Of a stretch of DNA of 64,000 nt, positions 218 through 7,003 are shown piece after piece. The DNA lies in the NCBI RefSeq assembly GCF_036373705.1, contig NC_089851.1, positions 55,423,940 through 55,487,939 on the forward strand. The letters are read 5' to 3'. A program made the position numbers and the translations under genes. The notes beneath the pieces were generated by a model, which did no database searches, was not told the DNA's origin, and was given only the letters and a program-made list of their open reading frames with translations. Position 1 is the stretch's first letter; each line of letters opens with the position of its first letter. This DNA comes from Amia ocellicauda (lineage: Eukaryota > Chordata > Actinopteri > Amiiformes > Amiidae).

Positions 218-317
218 CGTATGTTGCATTCAATGACAAAGAAAATCGTGTGCTGGAAATGATTTCTGGCAACTGTGAAGGAACTGCACGACTGCAGCAA
301 CCACAACACCTCTGTCT

Positions 318-391
318 GTCTCTGTGTCGCAATCGGTCAGCGTGTTTGGCTATTAACCGAAAGGATGGTGGTTTGAATCCACACAAGGACG
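318..391 (+). pseudogene. tRNA-Asn pseudogene (anticodon AUU), copy 1
   Basis: This 74-nt sequence aligns end to end with the intact tRNA-Asn(GUU) at 1,335 and has seven substitutions. Position 10 G to T and position 25 C to T turn a D-stem pair into T:T. Position 34 G to A changes the anticodon to AUU. Position 41 is G, making a T29:G41 wobble. Position 56 C to T breaks the invariant C of the TTC loop and the B box. Position 65 C to A breaks T-stem pair 49:65, and 68 G to A gives a C5:A68 mismatch. Several of these hit sites needed for TFIIIC binding and folding, so I call it a pseudogene. An inosine-34 Asn tRNA is formally possible but not supported. Confidence 0.88.
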
Positions 392-397
392 GCCCAC

Positions 398-401
398 TTT
401 T
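398..401 (+). terminator. T4 run after Asn pseudogene, copy 1
   Basis: A TTTT run lies six bases past the discriminator base, in the same position as the terminator of the intact Asn gene. Confidence 0.55.
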
Positions 402-555
402 CCCCCCGCCCCTTGTTATTGTTTCTACTTCTGGCGGTCAGCTTGCCAGATTGCGGCTACAGTAACCTTAAGCTGCTTGCTGCAGACGGCCATCTTGCAA
501 AAATGTATTGAGCGTTTAAAAACTTCCTTTCCATTGCCTATGCCAACGTAAACCA

Positions 556-629
556 AAGCACTGCTGGGAGTCGAACCCAGGGTTTCCTGTTAACAAGACA
601 GGCGCGTTGACCAACTAAGCCACGGCGCC
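556..629 (-). pseudogene. Chimeric tRNA-Thr pseudogene, copy 1
   Basis: A 74-nt Thr-type body read on the minus strand. Its first seven bases (GGCGCCG) and upstream flank (AAATCTGCC on the plus strand) are those of Thr-AGU. From the D loop onward it follows Thr-UGU, including the AAACC variable region and the downstream flank. Defects are a T12:C23 mismatch in the D stem, T at position 37, C6:A67 mismatch and a G1:T72 end pair. Position 37 in ANN-decoding tRNAs is normally A (carrying t6A), so T37 argues strongly against function. The recombination point lies in 16 bases common to the two parents (about 610-625). Confidence 0.88.
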
Positions 630-651
630 AAATCTGCCACTGTTGCTGCTG

Positions 652-1147
652 ATAGTAGCATAACAGCAGATCACGGACCACTGTCAATCAGATGCTTGCC
701 TTGCCGTCCATCCATCCATCTATCTATCTATCTATCTATCTATGACTCTCGATATCTAACTCTCTTGCTTGCTATCTCTCCCTCAATGGTCAGTAGCATA
801 GTAGCATAACAGCAGATCACGGACCACTGTCAATCAGATGCTTGCCTTGCCGTCCATCCATCCATCTATCTATCTATCTTTCGATGACTCTTGATATCTA
901 ACTCTCTTGCTTGCTATCGCTCCCCCAATGGTCAGTAACATAGTAGCATAACAGCAGATCACGGACCACTGTCAATCAGATGCTTGCCTTGCCGTCCATC
1001 CATCCATCTATCTATCTATCTATGACTCTTGATATCTAACTCTCTTGCTTGCTATCGCTCCCCCAATGGTCAGTAGCATTGTAGCATAACAGCAGATCAC
1101 GGACCACTGTCAATCAGATGCTTGCCTTGCCGTTCATCCATCCATCC

Positions 1148-1185
<38 letters not shown>

Positions 1186-1234
1186 GACTCTCGATATCTA
1201 ACTCTCTTGCTTGCTATCGCTCCCCCAATGGTCA
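652..1234 (+). repeat. Satellite monomers between blocks, unit 1
   Basis: About four monomers. Diagnostic variants in order: CTATCTCTCCCTC, then TTTCGATGACTC with AACATAG, then CATTGTAG, then the monomer broken by the intact tRNA block. The order repeats in units 2 and 3. The TCTA tract at about 1,151-1,185 is 35 bp here against 19 bp in units 2 and 3. Confidence 0.9.
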
Positions 1235-1334
1235 CGTATGTTGCATTCAACGACAAAGAAAATCGTGTGCTGGAAATGATTTTTGGCAACTGTGAAGGAA
1301 CTGCACGACTGCAGCAACCACAACACCTCTGTCT

Positions 1335-1408
1335 GTCTCTGTGGCGCAATCGGTCAGCGCGTTTGGCTGTTAACCAAAAGGATGGTGGTTCGAATCCACC
1401 CAGGGACG
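1335..1408 (+). tRNA. tRNA-Asn(GUU), copy 1
   Basis: Reads AAC/AAU codons. The 74-nt cloverleaf is complete. Acceptor GTCTCTG pairs with CAGGGAC (one T4:G69 wobble). The D stem is GCGC/GCGC. The anticodon stem TTTGG/CCAAA encloses loop CTGTTAA with anticodon GTT. T stem GGTGG/CCACC encloses TTCGAAT. The A box is TGGCGCAATCGG (from 1,342) and the B box GGTTCGAATCC (1,387-1,397). The discriminator is G and no CCA is encoded. The body matches the metazoan Asn-GUU type, except that 29:41 is T:A where C:G is usual, a compensated pair. No intron. Confidence 0.95.
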
Positions 1409-1414
1409 GCCCAC

Positions 1415-1418
1415 TTTT
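1415..1418 (+). terminator. Pol III T4 terminator of tRNA-Asn, copy 1
   Basis: TTTT begins seven bases after the last base of the tRNA and is followed by a C run. The distance is normal for an RNA polymerase III trailer. Confidence 0.8.
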
Positions 1419-1515
1419 CCCCCCGGCCCTTGTTATTGTTTCTACTTCTGGCGGACAGCTTGCCAGACTGTGGCTACAGTAACCTTAAGCTGCTTGCTGT
1501 GGACGGCCATCTTGC

Positions 1516-1520
1516 AAAAA
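1516..1520 (-). terminator. Candidate distal T5 terminator of Thr-UGU, copy 1
   Basis: AAAAA on the plus strand reads T5 on the minus strand, 53 nt past the 3' end of Thr-UGU. It is the first run of four or more T downstream of that gene; only TTT occurs nearer (about 1,567-1,569). If used, the pre-tRNA would have an unusually long trailer. Confidence 0.4.
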
Positions 1521-1572
1521 TGTATTGAGCGTTTAGAAACTTCCTTTCCATTGCCTAGGCCAACATAAACCA

Positions 1573-1646
1573 AGGCACTGCTGGGAGTCGAACCCAGGGT
1601 TTCCTGTTTACAAGACAGGCGCTTTGACCAACTAAGCCACGGTGCC
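1573..1646 (-). tRNA. tRNA-Thr(UGU), copy 1
   Basis: Reads ACA (and related ACN) codons. Minus-strand cloverleaf of 74 nt: acceptor GGCACCG/CAGTGCC with one C6:A67 mismatch, D stem GCTT/AAGC, anticodon stem CCTGT/ACAGG, loop CTTGTAA (anticodon TGT), T stem CTGGG/CCCAG, discriminator T, no CCA. The A box is TGGCTTAGTTGG and the B box GGTTCGACTCC. It matches the adjacent Thr-AGU at 65 of 74 positions, and the anticodons differ by one base, so it looks like an isoacceptor remoulded from that body. The acceptor mismatch leaves some doubt about full activity. Confidence 0.9.
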
Positions 1647-1687
1647 AGGACTCTCCCGTTCCCCAGTGCCTACACTCAGGCGTAAGG

Positions 1688-1734
1688 CAAAAAACAAAAC
1701 CAAACAAAACAAAACAAAACAAAACAAAACAAAA
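1688..1734 (+). repeat. (AAAAC)n microsatellite, copy 1
   Basis: A 47-bp pentanucleotide tract. Same length in copies 2 and 3, 77 bp in copy 4. Confidence 0.92.
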
Positions 1735-1959
1735 TCTGGATGCAGGCTGCAACAAAGGAAGCACACAGAGGTGAAAACGTATGGTTGACGGGAGCAACAA
1801 GCTCCCTGTTGCGACTGTCCAGGGGCGGCAATGGGAATTGGACGTTGGCCGTAGCGCGTGTCCTTTGGGTTCTGGTTCTTCTTTACAAACCGGCGTCTGT
1901 CCAGTTGGCTTTCCGGTTCATTACGTCCTCTGATGGCTTTACGATAAGCCTATCTTGCT

Positions 1960-1963
1960 AAAA
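1960..1963 (-). terminator. Candidate distal T4 terminator of Thr-AGU, copy 1
   Basis: Reads TTTT on the minus strand, 58 nt past the 3' end of Thr-AGU; nothing longer than TTT lies closer. Confidence 0.35.
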
Positions 1964-2020
1964 CTGATGGTCGACAAAGCGGAAGCACAAGCTTCGCAAG
2001 GAGCACAGAAAGCCCGCCTA

Positions 2021-2094
2021 AGGCACCGCTGGGATTTGAACCCAGGACCTCCTGTTTACTAGACAGGCGCTTTAACCAACTAAGCCACGGCGCC
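2021..2094 (-). tRNA. tRNA-Thr(AGU), copy 1
   Basis: Reads ACU/ACC codons, with A34 expected to become inosine. Minus-strand cloverleaf of 74 nt: acceptor GGCGCCG/CGGTGCC (G4:T69 wobble only), D stem GCTT/AAGC, anticodon stem CCTGT/ACAGG, loop CTAGTAA (anticodon AGT), T stem CTGGG/CCCAG with loop TTCAAAT, discriminator T, no CCA. The A box is TGGCTTAGTTGG and the B box GGTTCAAATCC, which fits the consensus. The body is very close to the standard animal Thr-AGU gene. The 22-bp upstream flank ends in CTG triplets before the satellite resumes. Confidence 0.95.
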
Positions 2095-2116
2095 AAATCT
2101 GCCGCTGCTGCTGCTG

Positions 2117-3401
2117 ATAGTAGAATAACAGCAGATCACGGACCGCTGTCAATCAGGTTCTTGCCTTGCCGTCCATCCATCCATCCATCTATCTATGACT
2201 CTCAATATCTAACTCTCTTGCTTGCTATCGCTCCCCCAATGGTCAGTAGCATAGTAGCATAACAGCAGATCACGGACCACTGTCAATCAGATGCTTGCCT
2301 TGCCGTCCATCCATCCATCCATCTATCTATCTATCTATGACTCTTGACATCTAACTCTCTTGCTTGCTATCGCTCCCCCAATGGTCAGTAGCAAAGTAGC
2401 ATAACAGCAGATCACGGACCACTGTCAATCAGATGCTTGCCTTGCCGTCCATCCATCCACCCATCCATCTACCTATCTATGACTCATGATATCTAACTCT
2501 CTTGCTTGCTATCGCTCCCCCAATGGTCAGTAGCATAGTAGCATAACAGCAGATCACGGACCACTGTCAATCAGATGCTTGCCTTGCCGTCCATCCATCC
2601 ATCCATCTATCTATCTATCTATCTATGACTCTTGATATCTAACTCTCTTGCTTGCTATCGCTCCCCCAATGGTCAGTAGCATAGTAGCATAACAGCAGAT
2701 CATGGACCACTGTCAATCAGATGCTTGCCTTGCCGTCCATCCATCCATCCATCTATCTATCTATGTATCTATGTCTCTTGATATCTAACTCTCTTGCTTG
2801 CTATCGCTCCCCCAATGGTCAGTAGCATAGTAGCATAACAGCAGATCACGGACCACTGTCAATCAGATGCTTGCCTTGCCGTCCATCCATCCATCTATCT
2901 ATCTATCTATCTATGACTCTTGATATCTAACTCTCTTGCTTGCTATCGCTCCCCCAATGGTCAGTAGCATTGTAGCATAACAGCAGATCACGGACCACTG
3001 TCAATCAGATGCTTGCCTTGCCGTCCATCCATCCATCCATCTATCTATCTATCTATCAATGACTCTCGATATCTAACTCTCTTGCTTGCTATCGCTCCCC
3101 CAATGGTCAGTAGCATAGTAGCATAACAGCAGATCACGGACCACTGTCAATCACATGCTTGCCTTGCCGTCCATCCATCTATCTATCTATCTATCTATGA
3201 CTCTTGATATCTAACTCTCTTGCTTGCTATCGCTCCCCCAATGGTCAGTAGCATAGTAGCATAACAGCAGATCACGGACCACTGTCAATCAGATGCTTGC
3301 CTTGCCGTCCATCCATCCATCTATCTATCTATCTAGCTAGCTATCTATCTATGACTCTCGATATCTAACTCTCTTGCTTGCTATCGCTCCCCCAGTGGTC
3401 A
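2117..3401 (+). repeat. Satellite monomers, right part of unit 1
   Basis: About nine monomers, about 1.28 kb. Diagnostic order: CAATATC; TGACATC with AAAGTAG; CACCCATCCATCTACC with TCATGATATC; a plain one with CATGG; one with TATGTCTC; CATTGTAG; CAATGACTCTCG; one with CACATGC; then the TAGC-interrupted one before the next decayed block. No genes. Confidence 0.9.
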
Positions 3402-3501
3402 CGTATGTTGCATTCAACGACAAAGAAAATCGTGTGCTGGAAATGATTTCTGGCAACTGTGAAGGAACTGCACGACTGCAGCAACCACAACACCTCTGTC
3501 T

Positions 3502-3575
3502 GTCTCTGTGTCGCAATCGGTCAGCGTGTTTGGCTATTAACCGAAAGGATGGTGGTTTGAATCCACACAAGGACG
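3502..3575 (+). pseudogene. tRNA-Asn pseudogene (AUU), copy 2
   Basis: Identical in all 74 positions to the copy at 318, including AUU anticodon, T10:T25 mismatch, lost C56 and the 49:65 and 5:68 mismatches. Identity among the three pseudogene copies shows the lesions predate unit amplification. Confidence 0.88.
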
Positions 3576-3581
3576 GCCCAC

Positions 3582-3585
3582 TTTT
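3582..3585 (+). terminator. T4 run after Asn pseudogene, copy 2
   Basis: TTTT at the conserved distance from the Asn-like body. Confidence 0.5.
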
Positions 3586-3739
3586 CCCCCCGCCCCTTGT
3601 TATTGTTTCTACTTCTGGCGGTCAGCTTGCCAGATTGCGGCTACAGTAACCTTAAGCTGCTTGCTGCAGACGGCCATCTTGCAAAAATGTATTGAGCGTT
3701 TAAAAACTTCCTTTCCATTGCCTATGCCAACGTAAACCA

Positions 3740-3813
3740 AAGCACTGCTGGGAGTCGAACCCAGGGTTTCCTGTTAACAAGACAGGCGCGTTGACCAACT
3801 AAGCCACGGCGCC
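3740..3813 (-). pseudogene. Chimeric tRNA-Thr pseudogene, copy 2
   Basis: Identical to the copy at 556: AGU-type first seven bases and upstream flank, UGU-type remainder, T37, and mismatches at 12:23 and 6:67. Confidence 0.88.
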
Positions 3814-3835
3814 AAATCTGCCACTGTTGCTGCTG

Positions 3836-6569: not shown

Positions 6570-6669
6570 CGTATGTTGCATTCAACGACAAAGAAAATCG
6601 TGTGCTGGAAATGATTTCTGGCAACTGTGAAGGAACTGCACGACTGCAGCAACCACAACACCTCTGTCT

Positions 6670-6743
6670 GTCTCTGTGTCGCAATCGGTCAGCGTGTTTG
6701 GCTATTAACCGAAAGGATGGTGGTTTGAATCCACACAAGGACG
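6670..6743 (+). pseudogene. tRNA-Asn pseudogene (AUU), copy 3
   Basis: Identical to the copies at 318 and 3,502, with all seven differences from the intact Asn gene. Confidence 0.88.
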
Positions 6744-6749
6744 GCCCAC

Positions 6750-6753
6750 TTTT
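6750..6753 (+). terminator. T4 run after Asn pseudogene, copy 3
   Basis: TTTT at the conserved distance. Confidence 0.5.
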
Positions 6754-6907
6754 CCCCCCGCCCCTTGTTATTGTTTCTACTTCTGGCGGTCAGCTTGCCA
6801 GATTGCGGCTACAGTAACCTTAAGCTGCTTGCTGCAGACGGCCATCTTGCAAAAATGTATTGAGCGTTTAAAAACTTCCTTTCCATTGCCTATGCCAACG
6901 TAAACCA

Positions 6908-6981
6908 AAGCACTGCTGGGAGTCGAACCCAGGGTTTCCTGTTAACAAGACAGGCGCGTTGACCAACTAAGCCACGGCGCC
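6908..6981 (-). pseudogene. Chimeric tRNA-Thr pseudogene, copy 3
   Basis: Identical to copies 1 and 2; AGU-type 5' end fused to UGU-type body, with T37 and stem mismatches. Confidence 0.88.
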
Positions 6982-7003
6982 AAATCTGCCACTGTTGCTG
7001 CTG

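Follow-up and report, generated by a model that had tools for sequence, protein, structure and literature searches.

A hybrid tRNA-Thr gene very probably left by recombination between two tRNA-Thr genes in a satellite-embedded tRNA array of Amia ocellicauda

A block of tRNA genes in Amia ocellicauda carries a single, hybrid tRNA-Thr gene where related blocks carry two. We consider it very probable that the block arose by a deletion, through recombination between two direct-repeat Thr genes of a two-Thr ancestor, and that the product afterwards decayed and spread. The block lies in a stretch of 64 kb (the window, C2:55423940-55487939) of a genome of 988 Mb in 385 contigs. Matches to a 142/146-bp satellite make up 92.4% of the window, that is, all sequence outside seven tRNA blocks. 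The seven stretches without satellite end exactly where the seven tRNA blocks end, so the block boundaries are not arbitrary, and all seven blocks start and end at the same positions of the satellite unit. Four of them contain Asn-GUU, Thr-UGU and Thr-AGU, and the other three contain Asn-ATT and one Thr gene (Table 1). From 10204 to 64000 the window is 142/146-bp satellite, and no further tRNA gene was found there.

The window is part of a tandem tRNA array in which the same tRNA genes recur in repeated units, and 147 such Thr genes were counted over the loci covered at that stage. Genome-wide, an exact 23-bp Thr pattern matches 575 times (370 forward and 205 reverse), and the first 100 listed are all on C2. 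A similarity search gave at least 94 matches, with 40 of 1185 candidates scored. The loci, which cover part of the array, were picked on the basis of pattern matches and of likeness to the window; the sample is one genome, from one individual of one species.

Table 1. Features of the tRNA blocks in the window (positions in the 64-kb stretch; scores are Rfam bits)
Feature	Position	Strand	Basis
One-Thr (deleted) block, copy 1, 434 bp	218..651	+	alignment, satellite boundaries
tRNA-Asn of deleted block, anticodon ATT, degraded, 42.0 bits	318..391	+	Rfam
Hybrid tRNA-Thr, body of UGU type, position 4 and upstream flank of AGU type, 49.1 bits	556..629	-	
Exchange stretch, 16 bp, tRNA positions 5-20, identical in UGU and AGU genes	610..625	-	
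AGU-type upstream flank with two derived bases	630..651	+	
Two-Thr block (Asn-GUU, Thr-UGU, Thr-AGU), 882 bp, cousin of deleted block	1235..2116	+	alignment, tree
tRNA-Thr(UGU), 68.7 bits	1573..1646	-	Rfam
tRNA-Thr(AGU), 71.5 bits	2021..2094	-	Rfam
Deleted block, copy 2, 1 mismatch to copy 1	3402..3835	+	
Deleted block, copy 3, identical to copy 2	6570..7003	+	
Higher-order unit, first of three (deleted block, satellite, two-Thr block, satellite), 3184 bp	218..3401	+	

The hybrid gene and its junction

Global alignment of the one-Thr block with the neighboring two-Thr block opens a single gap of 448 bp, which ends at homologous positions of the two direct-repeat Thr genes and equals the distance between the starts of the UGU and AGU genes in the two-Thr block (2021-1573 = 448 bp). 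The left flank (100 bp), the Asn-to-Thr distance (238 bp), and the right flank (22 bp) are equal in both blocks by Rfam coordinates. The earlier note had given the same block lengths, difference, flanks and Asn-Thr distance, all of which we reproduced, and the alignment check it proposed returned one gap only and one UGU/AGU switch within 610-625. The tRNA-Asn of the two-Thr block, at 1335-1408, scores 73.1 bits as compared with 42.0 in the deleted block.

Nine of the 74 gene positions distinguish UGU from AGU genes. At eight of these diagnostic sites the hybrid is UGU-like; at the last, tRNA position 4, it is AGU-like, and an AGU-type flank follows. There is thus one switch, inside the 16-bp identical stretch, and this pattern bears out the earlier suggestion that the exchange lay in a 16-base stretch common to both parents. 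The same stretch is present in both Thr genes of the two-Thr block at locus L012. On its AGU side the junction is marked inside the gene by one base, at position 4, together with the flank; at L033 an AGU gene carries the UGU-type base at position 4, which is therefore not strictly diagnostic.

When the 147 Thr genes were classified by both flanks, 76 proved to be UGU-type and 67 AGU-type on both sides. The rest are the three window copies of the deletion hybrid and one gene that combines an AGU-type 3' flank with a UGU body and a UGU-type upstream flank. Separately, a Thr-UGU gene at L031 (797-870) is AGU-like at three diagnostic sites near both ends and has UGU-type flanks; it is either an older mosaic or a divergent copy.

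Relatives, deleted length and direction of change

The left parts (392 bp) of 74 blocks, from the loci fetched by then, were compared. Beyond the window's own copies, the best match to the deleted block is the two-Thr block of L012, about 7.5 kb upstream (97.2%, 11 mismatches), followed by L033 (96.4%) and then by two L018 blocks and L032 (95.2%), and the two-Thr blocks of the window reach 94.9% at best. Two-Thr blocks of the deleted block's own subfamily are situated about 7-14 kb upstream of it. A tree of the 74 blocks (50 distinct rows; unrooted, with a midpoint root for drawing and the bootstrap not settled) places the deleted block in a set with the two-Thr blocks L032, L033 and L012 (supports 93/87 and 92/88) and, with the midpoint root, inside the two-Thr blocks. 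Support for L012 as its exact sister is weak (80/3). A grouping of the deleted block with the adjacent intact window blocks was rejected (p-AU 0.0007), in a test whose group was suggested by the finding, with the left-part identities already known and one set of identical rows left free. The intact window block, which the earlier note had treated as the parent or closest relative, is therefore only a cousin.

Among 22 sites compared with a consensus built from 68 other blocks, the deleted block has a different base at 19; L012 has 12 of these differences as well and lacks the other seven. On the other side of the junction, 70 AGU-type flanks were tabulated, without L034-L038. Six have the two derived bases together: those of the three window copies, that of L012 and two at L032. 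L033 does not have the pair. The pair is present at L034, the locus of a fourth hybrid copy, and absent from the two-Thr neighbor there. The 135 bp from 626 into the satellite match L012 best and then L032. By these similarities, a single subfamily of two-Thr blocks matches the sequence to the left and to the right of the junction alike. The trees may have been blurred by gene conversion from block to block.

The Asn anticodon ATT is found in L012 and L033 as well, and is therefore not a product of the deletion. Asn-ATT genes of one subfamily were located at L012 (2285 and 9757), L033 (1610), L034 (1797) and in the window (about 317, 3501 and 6669). Elsewhere, anticodon changes cause the gene at L018 (5860), in the Asn position, to be called Lys(CTT) and that at L025 (2115), in the Thr position, Arg(TCT).

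Neighboring Thr genes are 438-554 bp apart over 67 pairs (66 UGU-AGU and one UGU-UGU), and a CAAAA repeat sits in the spacer between them. In the hybrid's own subfamily the UGU-AGU spacings are 459, 494, 514, 519, and 554 bp, so that 448 bp is not the likely deleted length; to judge from these spacings, a true loss of about 460-550 bp is more likely. A gap equal to the distance between the genes follows from any exchange at homologous positions and hence does not identify the parent. Of the 448-bp recombination deletion between two Thr genes that was originally proposed, the deletion, the exchange in 610-625 and the two-Thr ancestor stand; the length and the parent do not.

The array contains gains as well. 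The fourth gene of mixed flanks mentioned above, with its AGU-type 3' flank, occupies the middle position of a three-Thr block at L014. Its junction pattern has three exact matches in the genome, all of them middle genes of three-Thr blocks, at three places. With the CAAAA run collapsed, the first spacers of the other two blocks show 1 and 2 base differences to the L014 spacer, which makes one event likely for all three blocks. The junction of this gene is at its 3' end, so the three-Thr block is not the reciprocal of the window event. The two spacers of L014 belong to different families, the second having an insertion found in 7 of 66 spacers, including those of L012, L032 and L033; blocks have thus been mixed.

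The last observation bears on which two genes recombined. It is quite possible, if somewhat short of an even chance, that the exchange joined different blocks (on sister chromatids, homologues or neighboring units) and was not confined to one block. Exchanges between Thr genes can also add a gene, as the three-Thr blocks show, and the spacers of L014 record a mixing of blocks; against this, both sides of the deletion belong to one subfamily, for which a deletion within one block is enough, and the exact reciprocal product of the window deletion, which would be expected from unequal crossing over only, has 0 matches in the genome (junction patterns were exact, and diverged copies may be missed).

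As to direction, the tree is unrooted, which leaves room for a one-Thr ancestor. The genome also contains other single-Thr blocks: five Thr-CGU genes at L029 (1-5000) and L030 (1-3000) have a UGU-type upstream flank, and no AGU gene was found beside them. It is nonetheless highly improbable that the one-Thr block is ancestral and that two-Thr blocks arose by duplication of Thr and addition of a spacer. The UGU-type and AGU-type sides of the hybrid, flanks included, would then need coincidence, and the one-Thr block groups in one two-Thr subfamily and not at the midpoint-rooted base. The UGU-type upstream flank of the Thr-CGU genes means that their blocks do not explain the hybrid, and the one L029 block that was printed in full, which breaks off inside the inter-Thr spacer into satellite, looks like a separate loss of the AGU gene. 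The direction from two genes to one rests on the grouping with two-Thr blocks together with the two-sided hybrid itself, and on both counts the earlier view that the opposite history is unlikely holds. A Thr-UGU gene lacking an AGU gene at L018 (224-1684), where the CAAAA repeat runs straight into satellite, is another kind of AGU loss.

Equally improbable are two separate events, in which a UGU gene received AGU-type 5' sequence by gene conversion and the spacer and AGU gene were lost independently. The AGU gene of L033 with its UGU-type base indicates that bases at position 4 can differ or move; in the deleted block, however, the flank switches together with position 4, and one in-register gap explains everything at once. 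Deletion by recombination between the two Thr genes is the reading that we carry forward.

Copies, spread and decay

Three copies of the deleted block are present in the window, and the single difference of the first from the other two lies outside the junction; the junction is therefore neither a chance match nor a one-off error. The block has been amplified with its neighbor as a higher-order unit, the second of which is 3168 bp long and differs from the first by 2 mismatches and 16 gap positions. Units 2 and 3, over the 2731 bp compared, differ by 8 mismatches and 16 gap positions. The exact hybrid pattern, a strict extension of the Thr pattern with 575 matches, occurs four times in the genome, namely three times in the window and once at C2:56480218, 1.06 Mb away, so this allele is not confined to the window.

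The fourth copy is 99.2% identical to the deleted block over 266 readable bp and has as its neighbor a two-Thr block of its own subfamily. Four of the changes by which the window copies stand apart from both L012 and the consensus can be read in it, and it has three of these: the change at tRNA position 38 and those at window 484 and 519. It does not have the change at position 24, and it has an anticodon change of its own, with the result that ARAGORN calls the gene Ile. Because the fourth copy carries the position-38 change too, that change predates the separation of the copies. Misjoining of reads from two Thr genes in this satellite-rich, hard-to-assemble region, where some of the retrieved sequence reads N, is very improbable as an explanation, given that the identical junction recurs in three window copies and 1.06 Mb away and that all four copies share changes at window 519 and 592 that are absent from 71 other blocks.

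Three bases separate the hybrid from the L012 UGU gene, at positions 4, 24, and 38. The exchange accounts for the first but not for the other two. The position-24 change breaks a D-stem pair (T-C), and position 38 is directly 3' of the anticodon, in the anticodon loop. The Rfam score falls from 66.4 bits in the L012 UGU gene to 49.1 in the hybrid. An AGU gene that has the alternative base at position 4 scores 73.3 bits (71.5 for the window AGU gene), by which the base brought in by the exchange would cost about 2 bits in an AGU background, an estimate from scores and not a measured decomposition; by the same scores, the substitutions at positions 24 and 38 probably make up most of the remaining loss. 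The hybrid thus has pseudogene-type mutations of the cloverleaf and conserved positions (24 and 38) and still scores above the Rfam gathering cut-off of 29, and we infer from its sequence that it has lost its function. The earlier description of a pseudogene made by the deletion has the cause wrong, as the exchange accounts for only one of the three changes, that at position 4.

The history that we propose would have begun with a two-Thr block of a divergent subfamily (Asn-ATT, Thr-UGU ending CTT, Thr-AGU). An exchange in the 16-bp identical stretch, from acceptor-stem position 5 to D-loop position 20, would have removed everything between corresponding points of its two direct-repeat Thr genes, by a pathway that may have been unequal crossing over, single-strand annealing or replication slippage. 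The product would be one hybrid Thr(UGU) gene with position 4 and the upstream flank of the AGU gene. Ordinary substitution would then account for the decay: the anticodon-loop change of all four known copies may have come before or after the deletion, and the D-stem change of the window copies and the anticodon change of the fourth would have followed their separation. Copies spread within the array, one of them 1.06 Mb off, and in the window the deleted block and its more distant two-Thr neighbor form a unit of about 3.17 kb that is present in three copies. The junction, the kinship with two-Thr blocks on either side of it, the substitutions common to all copies or private to some and the later amplification can be read from the sequences, and the pathway and the loss of function are inferred from them.

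Known tRNA arrays and implications

In Entamoeba, tRNA genes likewise lie in tandem units, with short tandem repeats between genes, and concerted evolution has been proposed for them, possibly by unequal sister chromatid exchange (PMC2652664). Unlike those arrays, the blocks described here sit in a 142/146-bp satellite. The part of the Entamoeba paper available to us finds no clear evidence for nonfunctional copies and describes no hybrid tRNA gene; recombination between active tRNA genes is the subject of a paper cited there (PMC2652664). The human repeat at 1q23.3 is also a tRNA-bearing tandem repeat with copy-number variation (PMC4041453). Its unit is 7.3 kb, GC-rich and contains five tRNA genes, and the accessible portion of that report mentions no exchange inside a tRNA gene. 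A survey of eukaryotic tRNA clusters, as far as its available text goes, describes clusters of at least fifty genes in some animals, rapid turnover and pseudogenes (PMC2888827), features in common with this array; here, by comparison, one event is resolved to a 16-bp interval and the undeleted relatives are known. Local gain and loss of tRNA genes have been attributed to unequal crossover, and the likeness of tRNA copies to gene conversion (PMC5745555); in the sections available this is a general statement with no single case of such a kind, of which ours is one.

A chimeric tRNA gene at a bacterial gene-cluster junction (PMC2791219, seen in part) was considered and is not a close precedent. 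A hybrid nuclear tRNA gene from such a deletion was not found in the titles and abstract openings of the open-licence literature, which is no proof of absence. Drosophila has hybrid serine tRNA genes, which may be a precedent.

The mechanism is ordinary and well documented, and the present case is a clean example of it. One genome contains the undeleted relatives, the junction, the further mutations and the later spread of a tRNA gene loss, and the case separates the recombination that removed a gene from the substitutions that damaged the one remaining. The three-Thr blocks are the opposite change within the same array. Exchanges inside Thr genes might, we suggest tentatively, be a recurrent source of gain and loss, with a loss allele known from 4 copies and a gain allele known from 3 (probably of one event) spread over about 1 Mb. 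If so, the ratio of isoacceptor genes would drift by recombination between the genes themselves.
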